Positions 2,262 to 18,750 of a DNA stretch of 51,658 nucleotides are shown here, in pieces (the stretch's first letter is position 1; the number at the start of each line of letters is the position of its first letter). The stretch is taken from positions 132,204-183,861 of the forward strand of contig JAIEPW010000018.1 in NCBI GenBank assembly GCA_019748195.1, read 5' to 3'. A program made the translations under genes and the position numbers. The stretch comes from Bryobacteraceae bacterium. Lineage in GTDB: Bacteria > Acidobacteriota > Terriglobia > Bryobacterales > Bryobacteraceae. The notes under the pieces were generated by a model. That model was not told where the DNA came from. It saw only the letters and a list, made by a program, of their open reading frames with translations, and did not search any database.

Positions 2262-3578
2262 ATGATCCCCCGCTACACACGGCCGGAAATGGCGCTCATC
2301 TGGAGCGACGAGAACCGCTACCGCGCCTGGCGCGACGTCGAAGTAGCGGCGTCGGAGGCTTTGGCGGAGTTGAATCAGATCCCCGCCGACGCCGCCCGCA
2401 AAATCCGGCAGTACTCCGGCTTCAAGGTGCAGCGCATTCTCGACATCGAAAAGGAGGTGAAGCACGATGTGATCGCCTTCACCACCGCGATCGCCGAGAA
2501 CATGAAAGCCGCGGGTCACGCGGAAGCCTCGCGCTGGCTGCACTACGGGCTGACGTCCAACGACGTAGTGGACACCGCGAACGCGCTTTTGGCGCGGCAG
2601 GCGTCCGGCGTGGTGATGGGCGGCTTGCGCAAGCTCTCGCAGATTCTGCGGCGGCGCGCCCAGGAGTTCCGCCACGCGGTGCAGATCGGCCGGACCCACG
2701 GCGTGCACGCGGAACCCATCACCTTCGGGCTTAAGCTGGCGTTGTGGTACGACGAAGTCCGCCGCAACACGGACCGTTTTCGCGCCTCGGCGGATGACAT
2801 GCGCGTCGGCAAGATTTCGGGGGCGGTCGGCACTTTCGGCCACATCGGCCCGGAAGCCGAGGAATTGATCTGCGAAAAGCTCGGCTTGCGCCCCGCGCCG
2901 GTGGCCAGCCAGGTGATCTCGCGCGACCGTCACGCGGCGTACCTCTCGGACCTGGCTCTGATCGCCGCGTTGTGCGAGAAGATCGCCTTGGAAGTCAGGC
3001 ACTTGCAGCGGACCGAAGTGCGGGAGGCGGAGGAGCCGTTCGCCGAGGGACAGAAAGGCTCTTCGGCGATGCCCCACAAGCGCAACCCGGTCACCAGTGA
3101 GCAAATCTGCGGGCTAGCCCGGGTGGTTCGCTCCAATGCGCAAGCCGGGTTCGAGAATATCGCCTTGTGGCATGAACGCGATATCTCACATTCGTCTGTG
3201 GAAAGGGTAATTTTACCCGATTCCACCACGCTCACTGATTACCTGCTGGCCAAAACCTGCTGGCTGGTGGAGGACCTGGCGGTTTATCCCGAGCGGATGA
3301 AGCGCAACCTGGAGTCGACGCACGGCTTGGTGTTTTCGGGACAACTCCTTCTGGATCTTACGGCTGCGGGGATGCTGCGGGAGACGGCGTACCGCGTGGT
3401 ACAGAACCATGCGATGAAAGCCTGGCAGGAGGAAGGGAACTTCCGGGAGGCCATCCGGAGCGATCCGGAAATCGCTAACTACCTGACTCCAGAGCAGATC
3501 GACACCAGTTTCTCGCTGGACAAGCAGCTAAGAAACGTCGACAAGATCTTCCTTCGCGTGTTCGGGGACGAAGATTAG
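2262..3578 (+). CDS. purB: Adenylosuccinate lyase
   Basis: A 438-aa protein, full length for the short (Bacillus/Thermotoga-type) adenylosuccinate lyases. It cleaves SAICAR to AICAR and adenylosuccinate to AMP in purine synthesis. The fumarase/aspartase superfamily signature GSSAMPHKRNP lies at 266-276 with the catalytic-loop serines. QIGRTHG (141-147) carries the conserved histidine, and LTSNDVVDT (98-105) is the first conserved block. The start ATG at 2262 matches the conserved N-terminus IPRYTRPEM. No purine gene is adjacent, so the gene seems to stand alone. Confidence 0.97.
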   Translation: MIPRYTRPEMALIWSDENRYRAWRDVEVAASEALAELNQIPADAARKIRQYSGFKVQRILDIEKEVKHDVIAFTTAIAENMKAAGHAEASRWLHYGLTSNDVVDTANALLARQASGVVMGGLRKLSQILRRRAQEFRHAVQIGRTHGVHAEPITFGLKLALWYDEVRRNTDRFRASADDMRVGKISGAVGTFGHIGPEAEELICEKLGLRPAPVASQVISRDRHAAYLSDLALIAALCEKIALEVRHLQRTEVREAEEPFAEGQKGSSAMPHKRNPVTSEQICGLARVVRSNAQAGFENIALWHERDISHSSVERVILPDSTTLTDYLLAKTCWLVEDLAVYPERMKRNLESTHGLVFSGQLLLDLTAAGMLRETAYRVVQNHAMKAWQEEGNFREAIRSDPEIANYLTPEQIDTSFSLDKQLRNVDKIFLRVFGDED

Positions 3579-3640
3579 GCGAACTGTGAGGAACGTGTGT
3601 AACGCTTTCTCCCCAGCGCCTCTCCATCAAAAATCCTAGA

Positions 3641-3667
3641 TTGAAAAAATCAGTTCTGCAGTACACT
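3641..3667 (+). promoter_or_regulatory. Possible promoter of the receiver-domain gene
   Basis: TTGAAA (3641-3646) and TACACT (3662-3667) are separated by 15 bp, about 40 bp before the ATG at 3706. The spacing is short for a sigma-70 promoter, so this is only a candidate. Confidence 0.25.
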
Positions 3668-3705
3668 AGGAAGCGAAGTCCTAAGGGCTTTGGTACGTCA
3701 GGCAA

Positions 3706-4134
3706 ATGTCACTTCAAGCTCGTAGCTCCGGTGTCGAAGTATCGCGGGTGCTGGTGGTCGACGATGACCCTACTTCGCGTCTCACTTTGAAGACCCTGTT
3801 GCAGGCAGGGGGTTACAACGTGGATTCGGCGGCGTCCGCCGCGGAAGCGGTGGACAAACTAGACAAGAAGGAATACTCTCTCGTAATCAGCGACTTGCAG
3901 ATGGAATCCCCGGAGGCGGGGCTGAAGGTTCTGGCCCACGCCCGAATGATGGACTACAAGCCTGCCACAGCGCTGGTCACCACCTATCAGAACAGTCCCC
4001 GGTCGCAAAACCACAAGAGCAAGCTGCTCATCAGCAGCGAAGATTTGCCGAACCTGCTTGGAAAAGTGGCGGACCTGATCGGACGCCGTACCGCGCGCCG
4101 GGTGGAACGCGAGCTCAGGCTCGCAGGCGCCTGA
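3706..4134 (+). CDS. Stand-alone response-regulator receiver domain
   Basis: A 142-aa protein made of one CheY-like receiver domain with no output domain. The acidic pocket VVDDD (residues 17-21), the phosphoacceptor region ISDLQM with D63, and the beta-4 threonine in ALVTTY are all present. The end of the domain is unusual: where a K-P pair is expected in beta-5, the sequence reads KLLISSEDLPNLL, and alpha-4 looks shortened. No kinase gene is adjacent. It probably acts as a single-domain signalling protein. Phosphorylation is plausible but, with the lysine displaced, the response may be altered. Confidence 0.85.
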   Translation: MSLQARSSGVEVSRVLVVDDDPTSRLTLKTLLQAGGYNVDSAASAAEAVDKLDKKEYSLVISDLQMESPEAGLKVLAHARMMDYKPATALVTTYQNSPRSQNHKSKLLISSEDLPNLLGKVADLIGRRTARRVERELRLAGA

Positions 4135-4165
4135 GAACAAAAGACAAAACAGCTAGGGTGATTGC

Positions 4166-4789
4166 CTACGGTAGCTTGAAGACCGCGTACTCCAGCTCTT
4201 CCAAACCGCCGGCGAAGAAGTGATCCCGGGCAGGGATCGCGATCAGTTGCTTGGGATCGGGCAGCGCGTCGACAACCGGGCGGAGATCCTCCAATGGCCC
4301 ATACTCATCGTTTGAGCTTTGGATGAAGTAGCGCGGGACCGTGCAGTTCTCCAGGAAGTCGCGGTCGGGATAAATGGTCGGGAAGCCGACGGGGATCAGC
4401 CGGCGAGCGCCGATGCCCGGACACCCAAGCCGGCAGATCACCCGGCTGCCGAAGCTGAACCCCGCGAGCGTAAACGGCAGGTCCGGATAGCGCCGGCGCA
4501 GCTCCGCGAGGGCGGCGCGGGCATCCTCGACCTCGCCTTCGCCCCGGTCGTAGACGCCTTCACTCAGGTTCACGCCGCGGTAGTTGAACCGGAGCACCAC
4601 ACAACCGGCATGCCGCAGGCCTCGCGCCACGCGATGCACCACTTTGTTATGCATGGTGCCGCCGTGCTGCGGATGCGGATGGCAGACCAGCGCGGCTTCG
4701 CGAGGCTCGGCGTCCTCGGGTTCCTCCAACAACGCTTCCAGCCGTCCGGCAGGACCCGTGACAAACAGCGTTTCGATCTTGCGGGCCAT
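4166..4789 (-). CDS. Alpha/beta hydrolase (COG2945-like)
   Basis: A 207-aa cytoplasmic protein with the alpha/beta-hydrolase nucleophile elbow GFSFG (S112), the conserved HPHPQHGGTMHNKVV block (37-51) and a late DHFF histidine, as in the small COG2945 hydrolases. Family members are mostly uncharacterised and the substrate is unknown. Its ATG directly follows the stop codon of the YajQ-type gene (0 bp between), so the two are almost certainly co-transcribed and translationally coupled. Confidence 0.88.
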   Translation of the reverse strand: MARKIETLFVTGPAGRLEALLEEPEDAEPREAALVCHPHPQHGGTMHNKVVHRVARGLRHAGCVVLRFNYRGVNLSEGVYDRGEGEVEDARAALAELRRRYPDLPFTLAGFSFGSRVICRLGCPGIGARRLIPVGFPTIYPDRDFLENCTVPRYFIQSSNDEYGPLEDLRPVVDALPDPKQLIAIPARDHFFAGGLEELEYAVFKLP

Positions 4790-5290
4790 CTAATTGGAGC
4801 GGTAGTTGGTGAACTGCATGTCGATGCCGAAGTCGTGCCCGCGCAACAAGGCGATGACGTCCTGCAGCGTGTCGCGATCCTTGCCGGCCACGCGAACGAA
4901 GTCGCCTTGAATGGACGCCTGAACTTTCTTCTTTGAGTCCTTGATCAGCTTCACGATTTCGCGCGCCTTCTCGGTGGAGATTCCTTGCTGGAGCGTGATT
5001 TCCTGGCGCACGGTGGCGGAGGCCGCCGTCTCGATCTTGCCGTAGGTAAGGCCCTTCAGCGGCACCTGGCGCTTCACCAGCTTGGATTCCAGAATGTCCT
5101 TCACGGCTTTCAGCTTGAAATCGTCCTTGGAATGTAGCGTGATCTTGTTGTCCTTCTCGTTCAACTCGATGGTGGAGTGCGAGTCCTTCAGGTCGTAGCG
5201 GGTGGTGATCTCCTTCATCGCCTGCTGGATAGCATTCACCACTTCGGGCAGCTCGATTTTGGAAACAATGTCGAAACTATTGTCGGGCAT
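4790..5290 (-). CDS. yajQ: YajQ family nucleotide-binding protein
   Basis: A 166-aa protein matching the YajQ family over its full usual length of about 160 residues. It has the conserved start MPDNSFDIVSKIELPEVVNAI, the ITTRYDLKDS segment, KGLTYGKIE, and the QASIQGDFVRV and DRDTLQDVI motifs. Some YajQ homologues bind cyclic di-GMP and act as transcriptional co-regulators; others were described as ATP/GTP- or tRNA-binding, so the ligand here is not certain. It is first in a two-gene unit with the downstream hydrolase and divergent from the large receptor gene. Confidence 0.95.
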   Translation of the reverse strand: MPDNSFDIVSKIELPEVVNAIQQAMKEITTRYDLKDSHSTIELNEKDNKITLHSKDDFKLKAVKDILESKLVKRQVPLKGLTYGKIETAASATVRQEITLQQGISTEKAREIVKLIKDSKKKVQASIQGDFVRVAGKDRDTLQDVIALLRGHDFGIDMQFTNYRSN

Positions 5291-5355
5291 GGGTCAGAAT
5301 CTCAGTCTCGCATAAGTTCCGAGACGCTTTCGCCGGCGCTTTGGACAAAGAACGT

Positions 5356-5385
5356 TTGCCCTCATATTCGGCTAGGAGTTATACT
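5356..5385 (+). promoter_or_regulatory. Candidate sigma-70 promoter of the first Oar-like receptor
   Basis: TTGCCC (5356-5361) and TATACT (5380-5385) are separated by 18 bp, 25 bp before the ATG at 5410. A GGGGGT ribosome-binding stretch precedes that ATG. This placement supports the ATG at 5410 rather than an upstream TTG at 5341, which would lie before the promoter. Confidence 0.5.
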
Positions 5386-5409
5386 CAACCCAGCTTCACG
5401 GGGGTGTCG

Positions 5410-8400
5410 ATGAATACGTTTTCGAAGTGGTTGTGGATCAGCCTGATGGCGGGATCCCTGGCGGCGCAGACCGTTACCGGATCGCTGGAGGGCCGCGTCA
5501 CGGATCCAAGCGGCAGTGTTCTGCCCGGAGCTCGCATCACCGTCAACAACAAGGACACGGGCCTGAATCGCGAGACGGTCACCAACAGCCAGGGCTACTA
5601 TCAGCTCACTTTTCTGCCGCTGGGCGACTACACCGTCGTCGCCGAGGCGCAGGGATTCGCGAGAACCACCCGCAACGCCATCGTCGAACTGGCGACTGTA
5701 CGCGCCGCCGACTTCCAGTTGCAGCTTTCCAGCGTCGCCACCGAGGTCACCGTCTCCGCCGACGCCGCGCTGATCGACACGGCGCGCGGGGAGGTCCGCA
5801 ACTCGCTCGATGAAAAGACGATCGAGGACCGGCCCCTGCCGTCGCGCAACATTCTGTCGCTGGTTGAGCAGATGGCGGGATTCCAGAGCTCGGGCTCGTT
5901 CGCGGCCGTGAACAACCCTACGCTGTCCTCGGGATCGTATGTTTCCTTCAACGGCACCGGCACCCGCTCGGCGAGCTTCCAGGTGGACGGGGTGAACAAC
6001 GACGACAACTCGGAAGGCACCAACCGCCAGAACGTCAACATCTCGTCGATCAAGGAATTTCAGGTGCTCACCAACGCCTACTCGGCCGAGTTCGGCCGCG
6101 CGGGAGGGGCTGTGGTGCTGGTGCAGACCAAGTCCGGGACCAACCGCTGGCACGGCGATCTGTACGAATTCCTGCAGAACGACAAGCTGAATTCGAACAG
6201 CTTTGTGAACAACGCGCTGGGACGGGACGCGAACGGAAGAGAAATCGCTCCCCGGCCCCCGATCCGGCGTAATCAGTTCGGCGGCACCGTGGGCGGGCCG
6301 ATCCTGCCGAACAAGCTGTTCTTCTTCCTGAGCGGTGAAGCGACGCAGCTTCGCCAATACACCACGATCCGCCGCTGGCTGATCCCCGCACAGCAGCTTC
6401 AGGTGGGCGAATGCCGACTGTGCCTGAATCCGGCGGAGCATCCGAATTTGGAGGCCGACCGGCAGTTTCTTCAGGGCATTCTCGATCGCTTCCCGAGAGT
6501 GGCGCCCAACGCGACCAACGTCTGCCCGCAGTGTTTTGTCGCGCTACGCCCGTCCGACTTCCCGGATCGCGATTACTCGGCGAAGCTGGACTGGATTGCC
6601 TCCGCCAAGAGCACCGTCGCCTTGCGCTACCAGTATTCGCGGCAGCGCCGCGATCCCGGGGAACTGATTCCCGGGGAGGTGGCGCGGCAGAACAACAAGC
6701 AGCAGAACCTGGGGCTGACCGCGACGCAACTGTTCACGCCGAGCCTGTGGGGCGAGTTCCGCTTCGGGCTGGGCTTGCGGACAACCACCGTGAACATCTC
6801 GGGCGGCAACGATACGCCCGTGGTGCGAATTGGCAACCCGGGACCCGCGGCCTATTCCACCACCCTGCTGGGGAACGCGAACCAGTTCCCGATCCTGCGC
6901 TACCAGACGGATTTCCAGTACGTGTACAACCTCTCCTGGATCGCGGGCAAGCACGTAATCCGCGCCGGCGTTGATTACCGGCGGCAATGGCTGGACGATC
7001 GCGCGGATCAGGCGTCGCGCGGTTTTTGGAGTTTTAACCCGACCGGTGTGCTCGGCACGGCGGGACGCTACGAAGGCTACGAGAACTTCCTGCGCGGCTT
7101 CGCCTCCAGCTTCCAGCGTGGCTACGGCAACTTCTTCACGCGAAACCGGAGCGCCGAGTTCAACCAATACATCCAGGATGACTTCAAGATAACCTCCAAC
7201 CTGACGCTAAACCTCGGGCTGCGTTACGAGTACGTGCTGGCGCCCAAGGAAGTGGATGGTTTCATCAATTACGGGTATGGAAATTACGGCGCTTTCCAGC
7301 CGCGCTTTGGATTTGCCTGGGTTCCGGTGAAGTCTAATCGCATCCTGAACCTGATCACCGGCGGCTCGCAGCAGAGCGCGATTCGCGGCGGCTTCGGCAT
7401 GTTCAACAACCGGATCTTCGGGTCGATCTTCTCGCAGCGGGCCAATCTACGCGCGCTTCCGCCCTATGGCGCGGTGCGCAGCTTCGATCCCACCTTCAAT
7501 GTCGCCGATCCTTCGAATGGCTTTGTCTTCCGTCCGGACCAGCCCGTGGGGCGCATCGATATCGCGCGCGTGGATCCGGGCTTGCGCCTTCCCTGGGTTT
7601 ACCAGTGGAACTTCACGTTCGACCGGCAGTTCGGGAAGGCGGTAACCATGTCGCTCGGCTACAACGGAACGCGCGGCATCGGACTGCTCGGATTTAATTC
7701 ACTGAACCGGGCGCAGTTTCCATTCACCGATCCGCTTACCGGCATTCGCTATGACCAGGTGGATCCGAATCCGGCGAACACGACGCCCGCGCCCGGCGTC
7801 ATTTCGCAGGCGCAGCCGAGGGTGAACAATCGCCGGCCCGATGTTCGCTACCTGAACGTCAATTTCATCACGAACAATATCTGGACCTACTATCATGCCC
7901 TGCGCGCGGAGATCCGCAAGCGCAACCGCGCGGGCTTCCACTGGTCCGTGGCCTACACTCTTTCCAAGTCCATCGACACGGGGTCGGACGCCTTCGAGGG
8001 CGATCCGATCACCGAGTTCGACGGGCCGGCCAGTAATCGCGGATTGAGTTCGCTGCACCAGTTGCATCGCATGAATCTCAACTACAGCTATGAGCTGCCC
8101 TGGTTCAAGCGGGGCATGGGGTGGAAGCGTCAGGTCCTGGGCGGATGGCAGCTCTCCGGCAACAACACGTTCGCCACCGGCAACCCGTTCACGGTAACCG
8201 CCGGGACGGACGTAAACGGCGATGGCGTACTGAACGATCGCGCGGTGCTGATCGACAACTCGTTCTTCGGAACAAGCGTGGACAACGGCCGCGTGGACCC
8301 GGCGACGGGCCGCGTGATCAGCACGCTGCAGCTTCCCGCGTCGGCCTTCCTGCCTCCGGCTACGCGCTTTTTCGATCCGGGCGGCACCGGCCGCGGCAGC

Positions 8401-11397: not shown

Positions 11398-11425
11398 TCC
11401 ATCCAGTACGCCGGGGAGCAGCTTG

Positions 11426-12982
11426 ATGCCGGTGCTTTTGCATGTCGACGATAACGACTCAATTCGATACGCGCGGTCCCGCACGTTAAAGTCCGCTGGT
11501 TACACTGTCGTTGATCTGGAAACGGGCGAGGAGGCGCTTGAAGTCGCGACGGCTTCCGCACCGGACGGCATCCTGCTCGATGTTCGCCTGCCCGGAATGG
11601 ATGGTTTTGCGACAGCGCGGACGCTTCGTCAGAATCCCCGATTGGTGGATGCGGCGATCGTCCTGATCACCTCGGGCGCCGTAACGGAAATCAGCGAGAT
11701 CGCGGCGAACGAAGAAACCATCGATGGGTTTCTGGTGGAACCGGTGCCGCCGCAACTGCTGGCCATCACCATGGCGGCGGCGTTAAACCGTAAGCGAACG
11801 CAACGCGAGTTGCGCATCGCTACCGCCGGGCTGGAAAAGCAGTTGGAGGAAACCCGCCGGGCAGCCGAGCAGAACGAGCGGTATCGCCGCACGCTGGAAG
11901 CTCTGATGGAGTACGTTCCCGAGGGGATCACGATCGCGGAACTGCCGGAGCTGGCGATCACCTGGGTGAGCAAGCACGGCATCGAGTTGACAGGGCGTCC
12001 GGCAGAGCTGCTCCATAATCTGCCGGGTCACCAGCACGCGCAGACTTGGGGCATTTTCCATGCGGACGGAACCACGCCGGCTGAAAACGAGGAATTGCCT
12101 CTGACGCGCGCGGCGACTCGCGGGGAGGTGGTGGAGGGTGAAGAATGGATCCTGCGGCGACCGGACGGATCGCGGATCTGCTGCCTGTGCAACGCCGGAC
12201 CGGTTCGCGACTGGTCCGGAGCGATCACCGGCGGTGTGATCGCGTGGCGCGACATCACCGACCGGAAGCGGAGAGAGCGCGCCCTACAGCAAAGCAATGA
12301 GGAACTGCAGCAATTCGTGTTCTCGGTTTCGCACGATCTTCAGGAGCCGCTGCGGACGGTAACTGCTTTTGGCGAGCTGCTGCGGCGCCGGCACCTGGAA
12401 TCCCTGGGGGGTGAGGGCGATTTCCTGATCCAGGAGATGTGCGGGGCCGCCGCTCGCATGCAGCACCTGATCCGCGACCTGCTGGCCTTTTCTCAGGTCC
12501 TTCCGGAAAGCGGACGCCCCGTACAGGAGGTCAACCTGAATCAGGTGGCCGGCGAGACGATTGCCAATCTGAAAGCGGCAATCGGAGAATCCGGCGCGGA
12601 CATCGAACTGGAAAACCTGCCCGTCGTGCGCGGCGATCAGCATCGGCTGGCTCAGTTGCTGCAGAATCTTCTGGCCAATGCGATCAAGTACGCGCGGGAC
12701 GGAGTGCAGCCGCGAATCCGCTTGACCGCCGTCAGCGGCCCGTCGAAGTGGACGATCTGCATTCAGGACAACGGCCCCGGCATCCCGCCGGAGCACGCGG
12801 AGCGGGTTTTTCAGCCATTTACGCGCCTGCATGGAAGAGACGTTTCCGGCACTGGGCTGGGACTGGCGATCGCGAGACGTATCGTGGAAGGCCACGGGGG
12901 CAGAATCTGGGTGGAGCCGTCGCCGCAGGGCGGCGCCCGATTCTGCTTCACGCTGCCGGTTTCACGGTTCGCGGGGGACTAG
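11426..12982 (+). CDS. Receiver-PAS-histidine kinase hybrid
   Basis: A 518-aa cytoplasmic protein. Domain order: receiver (1-120; DD at 8-9, phosphoacceptor D52, S83), a coiled coil (~125-155), PAS/PAC (~155-285, with GVIAWRDITDRKRRE at its end), HisKA with the H-box SVSHDLQEPL (H303), and HATPase (NLLANAIKYARD, DNGPGIP, GTGLGLAIARRIVEGHGG). The conserved receiver lysine is replaced by glutamate (LVEPV, E105). ATG at 11426 has GGGGAG 7 bp upstream and is preferred over TTG at 11423. It is divergent from the Crp/Fnr gene, and its stop codon directly abuts that of the convergent gene at 12983. It has no membrane segment, so the signal is probably cytoplasmic or comes via the receiver. Confidence 0.94.
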   Translation: MPVLLHVDDNDSIRYARSRTLKSAGYTVVDLETGEEALEVATASAPDGILLDVRLPGMDGFATARTLRQNPRLVDAAIVLITSGAVTEISEIAANEETIDGFLVEPVPPQLLAITMAAALNRKRTQRELRIATAGLEKQLEETRRAAEQNERYRRTLEALMEYVPEGITIAELPELAITWVSKHGIELTGRPAELLHNLPGHQHAQTWGIFHADGTTPAENEELPLTRAATRGEVVEGEEWILRRPDGSRICCLCNAGPVRDWSGAITGGVIAWRDITDRKRRERALQQSNEELQQFVFSVSHDLQEPLRTVTAFGELLRRRHLESLGGEGDFLIQEMCGAAARMQHLIRDLLAFSQVLPESGRPVQEVNLNQVAGETIANLKAAIGESGADIELENLPVVRGDQHRLAQLLQNLLANAIKYARDGVQPRIRLTAVSGPSKWTICIQDNGPGIPPEHAERVFQPFTRLHGRDVSGTGLGLAIARRIVEGHGGRIWVEPSPQGGARFCFTLPVSRFAGD

Positions 12983-15434: not shown

Positions 15435-15862
15435 GGACATTGGGTTTGATTCTGGCCATGCTGGCGGGCTACGGCCTGGCGGTAGCGCAACGGGGAGGAA
15501 AAATGGATCTGGGAGTTTTTTCCGTCAGCCTTACGGTGAAGGACATCGCTGCCTCGCGGGCATTTTACGAGAAGCTCGGCTTTGAAGTGATCGAGGGAAA
15601 GCAGGAACAGCGCTGGCTGATTCTGCGAAACGGCCGGGCCATTATCGGCTTATTCCAGGGGATGTTCGATCGGAACGCGTTGACCTTCAATCCCGAAGAC
15701 GTGCGCGCGATTCAGAAGCACCTGAAGGCGCAAGGAGTGAAGCTGCAACTGGAAGCCGATGAGAAGACCACGGGACCAGCGCACGCCACCCTGGTCGACC
15801 CGGACGGCAACCCGATACTCCTGGATCAGCACGAAGAAGAGTTCATGAAGAAATACCGCTAG
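15431..15862 (+). CDS. VOC (glyoxalase/bleomycin-resistance fold) protein
   Basis: 143 aa from the ATG that overlaps the AraC stop. The core from about residue 27 is a VOC domain: [41 protein letters not shown], and [13 protein letters not shown]. The N-terminal [20 protein letters not shown] looks like a signal peptide, which would make this an exported VOC protein. There is an alternative start at 15503 (MDLGVF) with a strong GGGGAGGA ribosome-binding site a few bases before it, giving a plain cytoplasmic VOC protein of 119 aa. Both products are possible. The substrate is unknown. Confidence 0.88.
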
Positions 15863-15883
15863 GGCGCGTTCGCTTGCGGCAGC

Positions 15884-16228
15884 ATGAGCCTGGGCATTCT
15901 GGTACACGGGTCAAATCATCACATCGTGCGGGGTCCCCTGCCCGATGCCGCCGCCGCCCGCGAGCTGGTGAAGCGCTGGGAGTTCGTGCAGGATCTGACG
16001 CGTCCGGCGGTCGTTCCGCCGTTGTGGCGGATCTCCACCCGCGAGTTTCGGGAGAACATCGAATGGGCGGTCGTGCTCGCCAACGGTGAGCCCCACGCGG
16101 CCGCGGTCGAAACCCTGCTTGCTGAACTTGCCTTCAGAGGCGTTCGCGTCCACCACGGGCCCGGTCCGTTCCTGCCTTTGGGACCTGGGTGGGCGGGAGA
16201 GCCATGGCCGAAATCGGCCGTTTCCTGA
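15884..16228 (+). CDS. Small hypothetical protein (114 aa)
   Basis: The family is not recognised. The translation reads like a real soluble protein (MSLGILVHGSNHHIVRG, WRISTREFRENIEWAVVLANG, FRGVRVHHGPGPFLPLGPGW) with a normal residue mix and no signal peptide. It starts 21 bp after the VOC stop on the same strand, so it may share that transcript. No function is proposed. Confidence 0.55.
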   Translation: MSLGILVHGSNHHIVRGPLPDAAAARELVKRWEFVQDLTRPAVVPPLWRISTREFRENIEWAVVLANGEPHAAAVETLLAELAFRGVRVHHGPGPFLPLGPGWAGEPWPKSAVS

Positions 16229-16300
16229 GATTCCCCGCTGCAACCTCACCTCGCCGGTCACATCTATTAGACTCCGATATATATTTGAGGAGAAGCGAAG

Positions 16301-17308
16301 ATGGCCGGAAGCGGAATGTCGATCAGCGCTAACACTAATGTTTTGTTGCAATTGCGGAATCGGAGGAATCAACTGGAATCCCTGGTCCGCAGCGTGGACG
16401 ACCCCCATGACATTCTGCGCGTCCTCCAGCAGGTGGACGCGGTTCTGGACCGGATCAAGACCGGGACCTACGGCGAGTGTTCCGTTTGCCACACATCGAT
16501 CGGCGAGGATCAGCTAGCCGACAATCCTCTTGCCGAATATTGCCTTTGCCATCTCGATGAGGCACAGCAGACGCTGCTCGGTCAGGACCTGAGCGCGGCA
16601 TGGCGGATTCAGGCAGCCCTGTTGCCCTGCCCCGATCTCGCCACCGCCCACTGGGAATCGCATTACCGCTTTCAGCCCCACGGCGCGGTAAGCGGAGATT
16701 ACTGCGATCTGATCCCCCGGGGCGACGATCTTCACTTCGTGGTCGCGGACGTTTCGGGAAAGGGAGTGGCGGCCGCCATCGTGATGTCCCACCTGAGCGC
16801 GACGTTGCGTGCTTTGATTCGCGCCGGCGCGAGCCTGCCGGAGCAGCTTTCCCGCGTCAACGATATCCTGCGCGAAAGCGCGTTCGATTCGCATTACGCC
16901 ACGGTTGTGATCGGCAAACTCGGTCCAGACGGGGAGGCGGAGATGCTGAACGCGGGTCACTGCCCGCCTCTGCTGCTTCAGGAATCGGGCGTTACACCGG
17001 TAGCCGCGTCCGGACCGCCTGTCGGCCTGCTGGACCTCGACGACTCGGCGCACGCGGTGCAGCGTTTCCATGTGCAAAGGGGCGACTCCCTGTTGCTCTA
17101 CACGGATGGCGTGATCGAGGCAATGAACGCTGAAGGCGACGACTTCGGGCTGGATCGCCTGATGCAGGTTTCCGGGCATCTGCGGGGCGCGCCGCCGAAT
17201 CAGGTGGTGTCCGCGGTGCTGGAGCATTTGCGCGCGTTTCTCCGTTCCACCCCACGAAACGACGATTTGACGGCGCTGGCCTTACGCCGGGTCCCACAAC
17301 CGGCTTAA
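16301..17308 (+). CDS. DksA/TraR-type zinc finger fused to PP2C/SpoIIE phosphatase
   Basis: A 335-aa protein. Residues 15-90 contain a helical stretch and a DksA/TraR zinc finger: IKTGTYGEC, with C60 x2 C63 x17 C81 x2 H84, where the usual last cysteine is a histidine. Residues ~105-332 are a SpoIIE/RsbU-type PP2C phosphatase: GDYCDLIPRGDDLHFVVADVSGKGVAAAIVM, LNAGHCPPLLL, YTDGVIEAMNAEGDDFG and RNDDLTALALR retain the metal-binding aspartates. Such phosphatases usually control partner-switching of an anti-sigma-factor antagonist. No STAS or RsbW gene is adjacent. A GAGGAG ribosome-binding site lies 8 bp before the ATG. The fusion could tie stress-phosphatase output to RNA polymerase or redox/zinc, but that is inference. 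Confidence 0.9.
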   Translation: MAGSGMSISANTNVLLQLRNRRNQLESLVRSVDDPHDILRVLQQVDAVLDRIKTGTYGECSVCHTSIGEDQLADNPLAEYCLCHLDEAQQTLLGQDLSAAWRIQAALLPCPDLATAHWESHYRFQPHGAVSGDYCDLIPRGDDLHFVVADVSGKGVAAAIVMSHLSATLRALIRAGASLPEQLSRVNDILRESAFDSHYATVVIGKLGPDGEAEMLNAGHCPPLLLQESGVTPVAASGPPVGLLDLDDSAHAVQRFHVQRGDSLLLYTDGVIEAMNAEGDDFGLDRLMQVSGHLRGAPPNQVVSAVLEHLRAFLRSTPRNDDLTALALRRVPQPA

Positions 17309-17319
17309 GATCGAAGCCA

Positions 17320-17877
17320 ATGAAAACGAAGATTTTCTTACTGGCTCTGGCCGCGGCGGGCCTTTGTCAGGCCCAGGACTACCTGCGCAAATGGAACGTC
17401 TACGGAGCGGCCGGCTACGGATGGACGTCGGATGACGAAGGGTCCGTCGGCAATGGATTCGCCGGCGGTGGAGGCTTGGGCTACCGCTTCAACCGGCGCC
17501 TGGAAGCAGTGTTCGATATCAGCGCGTTCCGGCATCGCCGCGAGGGTGCGTTCGCCCGCGCCGAGTTCGCCGGCACGGGGCAATACTACACGGCCAATCT
17601 GCTCTATCACTTCTCCGGTTCGCGATTTCAACCTTACGTTCTCGGCGGGGCCGGGGGCATCGCATATCAGGTGGATCGAGGCATCGATCTGCCACGCGAT
17701 ACCAGCACCGGAGGCTTCGCCATCACGTTTGGGGGCGGCGCCAAGGCTTTTGTTTCTGAGAGGTTCTCGATTCGTCCCGAAGTGCGCGTTTATGCGGGAG
17801 GGCGGGGCGCGGTGGGCGGAATCGAGCCTCCCATCGTCAACATCCGATTTGCGATCGGGTTCGGATACCACTGGTAA
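17320..17877 (+). CDS. Outer-membrane beta-barrel protein (OmpA/OmpW-like size)
   Basis: 185 aa with a clear signal peptide (MKTKIFLLALAAAGLCQAQ). The rest alternates in the style of an eight-strand beta-barrel: WNVYGAAGYGWTSDD, GGGGLGYRFNRRLEAVFDISAF, ANLLYHFSGSRFQPYVLGGAGG, FSIRPEVRVYAGG. The last residues, FGYHW, end in an aromatic residue as outer-membrane barrels do. No peptidoglycan-binding domain is present. The role is unknown. It starts 11 bp after the phosphatase stop. Confidence 0.88.
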   Translation: MKTKIFLLALAAAGLCQAQDYLRKWNVYGAAGYGWTSDDEGSVGNGFAGGGGLGYRFNRRLEAVFDISAFRHRREGAFARAEFAGTGQYYTANLLYHFSGSRFQPYVLGGAGGIAYQVDRGIDLPRDTSTGGFAITFGGGAKAFVSERFSIRPEVRVYAGGRGAVGGIEPPIVNIRFAIGFGYHW

Positions 17878-17913
17878 CCGGCGATCCGGTTCCCGCGCAA
17901 CATACAATGGATC

Positions 17914-18381
17914 ATGCGCGCCCTTTTGGTGCTGTTTCTCACGTTTCCCCTTCTGGCGGCTGATCCGCGAAAGCAATTGACCGGCACCTGGAGACTGGTA
18001 TCCTACGAGCGCACAACGCCCGCGGGAATCACGGAAGCGCCGTTCGGCAAGACGCCGGCCGGACGCCTCATCTACGACGGTAAAGGCCGCATGTCGACTC
18101 ATATGATGCGACCCGGAAGGCCCTCGTTCTCCGAACCCCAACTGAGGAACGGTACGCCCGCGGAAATCGAGGCGGCATATCGGGGCTATCTCGCCTACTG
18201 GGGCACCTATACAGTCAACGCCAGGGACAAGGTGATTCTCCACCGGATCGAAGGCAGCCTGTATCCGAACTGGGTGGGATCCGAGCAGCGCCGGCCATTC
18301 TCGTTTGAGAGAGGCCGGCTGGTGCTGATTTCCGACTCGTCGTTGGGGCGGGCGAAGATCGTTTGGGAGAAGCTGCCGTAG
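17914..18381 (+). CDS. Lipocalin-like domain protein, exported
   Basis: 155 aa with a short signal peptide (MRALLVLFLTFPLLAA). The body matches the lipocalin-like family seen in many bacteria: LTGTWRLVSYERTTPAG, GRLIYDGKGRMSTHMMRPGRP, YWGTYTVNARDKVILHRIEGSLYPNWVG and a final strand RLVLISDSS. Function is not known; members may bind small hydrophobic ligands in the periplasm. It lies 36 bp after the barrel gene, same strand, probably co-transcribed. Confidence 0.85.
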   Translation: MRALLVLFLTFPLLAADPRKQLTGTWRLVSYERTTPAGITEAPFGKTPAGRLIYDGKGRMSTHMMRPGRPSFSEPQLRNGTPAEIEAAYRGYLAYWGTYTVNARDKVILHRIEGSLYPNWVGSEQRRPFSFERGRLVLISDSSLGRAKIVWEKLP

Positions 18382-18750
18382 GAGCCCGAAGAGAGGCTTA
18401 CGGCTTCCGCCGGTCCACCCGAATGGGGCTCGAGCCAGCCATCGCTCACCCGACTGTTCCACGGAATGAGGTTGGGTTTTGCGGTGGCGGGCGACGTGCG
18501 CCCCGAGGCCGAATTCCGCAACCACGGCTCGCCGAGGTCGCGAACCTCGGCTCGCCTCAACTCGGTGCGAGGCTCCACTTTCATCTGAACCTCCATTTCC
18601 GGCCGCGGACCCCTCTCGAGACCGCCAGCGGATCACGCCGGCGGTGTGATGGGCGCCGTGCCGATCACCTTGGCTTCCATGCGCTGCCGTGGGACCCGGG
18701 ATGCCCTTGTTAAAGCGGAAACGCAAGTATGACCACTTGACGGCGCGGGG
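18382..18750. other. Intergenic region of 369 bp between convergent genes
   Basis: No gene is supported here. A hairpin GCCGAGGT-CGCGA-ACCTCGGC lies near 18530-18551 but lacks a T tract. Open frames on both strands have arginine/proline-rich, non-protein-like composition. The region may hold terminators for the lipocalin gene and the thiolase, but none is clear. Confidence 0.4.

Follow-up and report, generated by a model that had tools for sequence, protein, structure and literature searches.

The gene at positions 16301 to 17308 on the forward strand of the window (the whole 51,658-nucleotide stretch of Bryobacteraceae DNA analyzed here) joins a zinc finger of the DksA/TraR type to a phosphatase of the SpoIIE type, and raises the question of what a transcription-factor fold is doing at the head of such an enzyme. 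The first-pass annotation suggested that one protein could couple the state of transcription to a sigma-factor switch. The 335 aa open frame begins with an ATG preceded by GAGGAG. A weak sigma-70-like promoter match, based on consensus only, is located upstream at 16257–16285 (+), and there are two promoter-like sites in the region 15800–18500 as compared with a mean of 0.5 (sd 0.6) in shuffled sequences. From N to C terminus the domain order is a short helical hairpin, a DksA/TraR-type zinc finger, a linker helix, and a complete SpoIIE/RsbU-type PPM (PP2C) phosphatase domain.

Profile searches recognize the two ends of the protein to different extents. The Pfam SpoIIE profile (PF07228) matches residues 141–330 at E 2.4e-44 and extends over nearly its full length (profile positions 2–191 of 192). 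The zinc finger that the first-pass annotation had placed within residues 40–90 is confirmed, though profile models see it weakly in this protein taken alone. Pfam zf-dskA_traR (PF01258) matches residues 55–82 at E 0.01 with 16.3 bits, below the cut-off of 24.9, and the window protein is absent from the PF01258 matches in a search of its own genome. The NCBIfam models DksA_like (1.7e-7, residues 41–82), yteA (TIGR02890, the YteA-type DksA relatives of Bacilli; 3.8e-7, residues 40–88) and dksA (2e-6) all match the finger, with scores far below the curated cut-offs of those models. Sequence matches in the PDB are to A. tumefaciens DksA for residues 42–81 (0.0013), and to the RsbU domain of Rv1364c (9.2e-22), SpoIIE and P. 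aeruginosa RssB. When the same Pfam search (E 0.01) is applied to 21 aligned homologues, SpoIIE is found in all 21 and the finger in 20, the window protein being the sole miss. A match to EAD7 at residues 4–32 (E 0.0039, below cut-off) was set aside, as it occurs in one of the 21 homologues, the window protein itself.

The presence of a finger and a complete PP2C domain in one protein, as originally read, is not peculiar to this genome, and the fusion recurs across genomes of the phylum. Within its own genome there are 10 SpoIIE-domain matches, and a protein search aligned the finger in the window gene alone, the eight other matches starting at residue 86 or later. With the N-terminal 133 residues as query, 22 of the 200 genomes searched in the order give strong matches (E ≤ 2.4e-11, own genome included), followed by a gap to the next matches at 6.8e-7; one of these 22 loci (L071) is cut off by the end of its contig ahead of the phosphatase. 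When the N-terminal part is searched as a profile, at least 57 of the 396 phylum genomes give strong matches (E < 1e-14, own genome included), a lower bound because in most genomes the 12 best candidates were scored; the tally at E ≤ 1e-8 is 265 of 396, mostly separate DksA-like frames. Fifty of the 57 strong loci were read, and in every one the frame continues into PP2C motifs, including one that runs off its contig (L134) and a 155-aa frame with one PP2C motif (L143). The seven left out of the reading are those of G314, G242, G224, G252, G341, G442 and G330, the last of which sits at a contig edge. Two copies appear to be broken, the 155-aa frame of L143 (genome G220) and the G242 match on contig C121, which contains internal stops. 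The recurrence in open frames, mostly of 310–500 aa, in dozens of genomes rules out a chance match or an artefact of frame or assembly.

Wider searches were of three kinds. First, a whole-protein scan of 84,980 species genomes, which finds close relatives only, returned 60 loci with no fusion by a finger-motif check that would miss variants; the check recovered one separate 147-aa DksA-like frame. Second, 39 genomes outside the phylum search, reached from 40 of these 60 loci and not a random sample, contain a single fusion (L176). This is in an Anaerolineales record, which we take to belong to the Chloroflexota, and has an N-terminal profile match at 6.2e-15, a SpoIIE domain after it, and a finger read as C..C..C..H; Pfam at E 0.01 finds its SpoIIE domain and misses the finger (PF01258). 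Third, no fusion of the finger to other domains was seen among 14 weaker profile matches that were fetched, and by eye no phosphatase part follows the finger in them. In these the finger lies at the C-terminal end, either of an ordinary DksA-like protein or of a frame that was extended too far (stop-to-stop frames of 161–553 aa; open frames of 298–572 aa by the search). In a quick tree of 69 rows (L071 being too short to include, and L147 and L155 being sisters) 28 of the 66 inner branches are open, and the window protein forms a long branch (1.26) of unsure placement. One clade of eight fusions (L166, L167 and L170–L175), seven of them from family f26, has a cysteine at position 84 (WGxC...C..C) together with SGDHVD for SGDYCD. 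Among the papers listed by literature searches aimed at the fusion none describes it, although database annotations may exist, and a term search of a paper on the myxobacterial phosphatome (PMC2887360) met neither zinc nor DksA. The fusion thus recurs as a version of a well-known type of switch phosphatase, set apart by an unusual putative sensor.

The finger itself occupies residues 58–84 (16472–16552, +), as located by NCBIfam, alignments and fold matching, with C60, C63, C81 and H84 as its proposed ligands. First, all four residues are invariant in the 21 aligned homologues, and in the wider alignment of 58 relatives every sequence keeps the three cysteines named in the first-pass annotation. 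Second, the histidine that had been noted in place of the final cysteine proves to be the majority state of the family: position 84 is H in 49 of 71 fusions, C in 13, D in 6, R in 2 and E in 1. Most fusions are thus CCCH, in contrast to the CxxC-17-CxxC (C4) finger of DksA/TraR, of which the window protein keeps C60, C63 and C81 and has histidine as the fourth. Histidine at this place is not unique to the fusions, since the finger of a Paenibacillus DksA-like protein (L183), which may be YteA itself, ends in CVEH; that protein differs from the fusions in its longer stretch before the finger, and its 260-aa frame shows no PP2C motif by eye. Third, H, C or D is present at position 84 in 68 of 71 fusions, and the three exceptions all have Cys83. 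Cys83 is otherwise found in one fusion only, the window protein, which has both Cys83 (16547–16549, +), a neighbor that the first-pass annotation passes over, and H84. The association of Cys83 with the loss of H, C or D at position 84 (Fisher p 7e-5, sequences treated as unrelated) suggests, uncorrected for kinship, that the predicted metal site is under selection and that its fourth ligand can hop to position 83. The finger would be expected to bind metal.

Does the N-terminal domain resemble DksA in more than its finger? The AlphaFold2 model of the full protein (mean pLDDT 89.2) has helices at residues 8–29 and 36–54, the finger, a helix at 87–107 and a PPM fold, and the N-terminal domain modelled alone has a pLDDT of 88.1. 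The first two helices, of 22 and 19 residues, form the hairpin (16322–16462, +), which looks like a truncated DksA coiled coil. In a PDB fold search with the N-terminal model the six best entries among the matches listed all belong to the DksA family, namely 6ptg of C. trachomatis (Z 11.7), 4ijj (P. aeruginosa DksA2; 10.7), 5vsw, 7khi and 1tjl of E. coli (9.7, 9.6 and 9.5), and 2kq9 of A. tumefaciens (8.6), with the next row at Z 6.5, and the first eight rows of a Foldseek search are DksA chains; families absent from these lists may still resemble the domain. The predicted domain has the hairpin, zinc finger and C-terminal helix of the DksA fold, and its likeness to DksA in sequence extends over N-terminal profile positions 33–86. 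Alignment with E. coli DksA (1tjl) pairs 93 residues (model 1–95) across a 121-residue stretch (31–151). The profile aligns gap-free with 1tjl from the second helix through the finger, and the 26–28 missing residues are therefore placed in the hairpin, which falls short of the full-length coiled coil of DksA and TraR by that amount.

It is unlikely that this domain acts on RNA polymerase as DksA does, because the hairpin is short and lacks the DxxDxA tip, and most of the residues that bind ppGpp have been exchanged. DksA and TraR are described as needing the aspartates of DxxDxA, at the tip of the coiled coil, in order to function, although DksA does not need them to bind RNA polymerase (PMC9239242). 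A Dxx[DE]xA sequence upstream of the finger is found in one of 58 relatives, where it lies in helix 1 rather than in the loop; DxxD is found in six of 58, among them the window protein with D34-P-H-D37 (DPHD) in its loop, and the loop columns (30–37) are unconserved. The DksA residues reported to bind ppGpp at site 2 are R91, L95, K98, R129 and K139 (PMC7676912). When mapped through the profile alignment to 1tjl, the window protein differs at all five (D37, V41, Q44, N75 and L85). Across the family the K98 place is Glu in 42 of 58, the R129 place Asp or Asn in 57 of 58 and the K139 place Leu in 56 of 58, the R91 place (position 37) is variable, and the L95 place, the sole one kept, is Leu in 57 of 58 and Val in the window protein. 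The lack of a C4 finger does not by itself exclude DksA function, because P. aeruginosa DksA2 is described as functional without a zinc finger (PMC9239242).

These observations bear on two readings that retain the polymerase. The fusion might be a DksA-like factor that inserts into the secondary channel of RNA polymerase and carries the phosphatase as an added activity, for which the DksA fold, the leucine at the L95 place and the DPHD loop of the window protein can be cited. We consider this very improbable, given the shortened hairpin, the scarcity of the tip motif and the replaced ppGpp residues, and the own genome has separate small DksA-type proteins: five PF01258 matches score over the cut-off, and the four that were read are small proteins with full C4 fingers. 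A variant of the idea, to which we attach equally little probability, is that the mini-DksA docks on the rim of the secondary channel, short of the active site, and tethers the phosphatase there, such that sigma would be freed from its anti-sigma factor beside the polymerase and the redox or metal state of the finger would set the docking. Of the coupling between transcription state and a sigma switch envisaged by the first-pass annotation, the fusion of a DksA-type fold to an intact phosphatase stands, and the action on RNA polymerase is not supported by the hairpin, tip or ppGpp residues.

The remainder of the protein points instead to a phosphatase with an exchanged sensor. The PPM/PP2C domain (residues 112–330; 16634–17290, +), defined by Pfam, alignment and fold matching, retains D133, D150, D269 and D322, which are invariant in 21 of 21 homologues and correspond to the catalytic metal-binding aspartates of this phosphatase family. 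Among the matches listed, its fold is closest to the RsbU domain of Rv1364c (Z 27.3), SiaA (27.1), SpoIIE (24.6) and P. aeruginosa RssB (24.5 for 3f79 and 23.6 for 3eq2). The predicted linker helix (residues 87–107; 16559–16621, +) aligns with the pre-phosphatase helix of RssB and SiaA, whose structural alignments begin at model residues 85–88 and so include the linker; within it Asp96 is conserved in 58 of 58 relatives and Gln104 in 55 of 58, and LLP at 107–109 is nearly invariant. The catalytic domain, the four metal aspartates and the helix leading into the domain are thus shared with the family of RsbU, P. aeruginosa RssB and the Rv1364c RsbU domain. RsbU-type phosphatases are described as being switched by exchangeable N-terminal sensors, for which PAS, response-receiver, GAF and HAMP domains are named, acting through a linker whose coiled coil brings two PPM domains together as a dimer (PMC12143880), and specificity is attributed to three surface loops (PMC11418112). 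Where those proteins have such a sensor, or the four-helix domain of RsbU, the fusion has a DksA-like finger.

A cysteine within the phosphatase provides a further distinguishing feature. Cys135 (16703–16705, +) lies in the sequence SGDYCD, near the catalytic Asp133, and is present in 57 of 69 fusions (Val in 10 and Phe in 2; two of the 71 rows, L071 and L091, lack the motif) and in none of 62 unfused control PP2Cs, of which eight are own-genome paralogues and two have a gap at this place. The association of this cysteine of the GDYxD motif with the fusion has p 1.6e-25, sequences being treated as unrelated. It cannot be essential to all fusions, because 12 of the 69 have Val or Phe, and the Chloroflexota fusion L176, which is outside this count, has Phe. 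A cysteine so close to a catalytic metal ligand is a hint that activity may be controlled through thiols.

We therefore think it probable, though by no means certain, that the fusion is an RsbU-type serine/threonine phosphatase with a miniaturized DksA, consisting of the short hairpin and CCCH finger, as its N-terminal regulatory domain, and that it acts on an unlinked STAS protein. The mini-DksA would occupy the position taken by the sensor in other RsbU-type phosphatases and, by analogy with RsbU and RssB, would control pairing of the linker helix, and hence dimerization and activity of the PPM domain. The finger would be the input, such that loss or gain of metal, oxidation of thiols or binding of a partner alters the hairpin and linker; on the sequence evidence a metal or thiol state is the signal we favor. 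Once active, the phosphatase would remove the phosphate from a STAS anti-anti-sigma protein whose gene lies elsewhere, leading to release of a sigma factor or of another RsbW client.

The finger could, however, be purely structural, that is, a cap or dimerization module without sensing, with regulation by a partner protein docking on the hairpin in the way that RsbT engages RsbU. The drift of the fourth ligand between H, C and D suits a structural site, and the N-terminal domain of RsbU is described as a dimerization and partner-binding module (PMC12143880). The Cys135 pattern suggests more than a structural role for the fusion, and we regard this alternative as possible but rather unlikely. 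The own genome contains a cluster of RsbR/RsbS/RsbT-like genes that fits a partner-regulated structural finger, but it lies on a different contig, next to a hybrid histidine kinase, and no partner gene was found linked to the fusion. The cluster is on contig C153 (locus L224, G000:C153:36500-46500, about 2271-6690) and comprises an RsbRD_N-STAS gene, a second STAS match, an RsbT-like HATPase and a frame with SpoIIE and HATPase matches; the adjoining hybrid histidine kinase itself contains a HATPase_c_2 match, and the cluster may be a stressosome-like module feeding a two-component system.

If the regulatory reading of the mini-DksA is correct, where is its partner? Anti-sigma and STAS genes, whose co-occurrence the first-pass annotation proposed as a check, are indeed present in the own genome, which has six STAS matches, four STAS proteins with a DSTG, DSSG or DSAG motif, and on contig C146 an RsbW-like gene with a STAS gene after it. 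HATPase_c_2 (RsbW-type) matches occur in all 20 further fusion-bearing genomes checked (of 77), and also in six of 14 control genomes, so that the presence of this domain adds little weight. No HATPase_c_2 match (E ≤ 1e-8) lies within 350 kb of the fusion on its contig in those 20 genomes, mostly drafts, and 18 of them have such matches on other contigs only. Nor was a conserved neighbor gene found in 32 usable contexts with crude gene calling, the largest recurring neighbor cluster containing six genes from five contexts. The survey covered 41 contexts (the window and 40 loci, from 78 genomes with strong matches), and this absence carries little weight because the target gene was missed in nine of the 41 and, in the window, an antisense frame was called in place of the outer-membrane gene. 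A sigma-factor switch is plausible from the class of phosphatase, and the link to it stays an inference because no partner gene was found beside the fusion. With 10 SpoIIE-domain matches in the own genome, there are several candidate substrates.

In the immediate neighborhood, a gene for an outer-membrane beta-barrel (17320–17877) begins 11 bases past the stop codon of the phosphatase; it has the same orientation and may be co-transcribed, and a lipocalin-like gene comes next, at 17914. A receiver-PAS-HisKA-HATPase protein is encoded upstream in the same orientation, at 11423–12982. The barrel gene has a bearing on the output, as the phosphatase might act on a target other than a sigma pathway, such as an envelope, metabolic or biofilm pathway, in the manner of SiaA; this concerns the output only and is compatible with a sensing as well as a structural finger. 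SiaA ranks near the top of the structural matches listed above, and NCBIfam labels it a biofilm regulation phosphatase. We give this output a limited chance, comparable to that of a structural finger, considering that the crude gene calling disclosed no conserved neighbor and that the own genome encodes STAS and RsbW-like proteins.

If the sensor role is correct, then a transcription-factor fold has been cut down and reused as a sensor, and a DksA-derived finger adds a metal- or thiol-sensitive input to the PAS, response-receiver, GAF and HAMP sensors described for RsbU-type phosphatases, suggesting that a stress switch is controlled through such a finger. The family is spread through the phylum, includes natural variants of the fourth ligand, and in most members has a cysteine beside the catalytic metal site, so that the idea of a redox- or zinc-to-sigma connection is directly testable.
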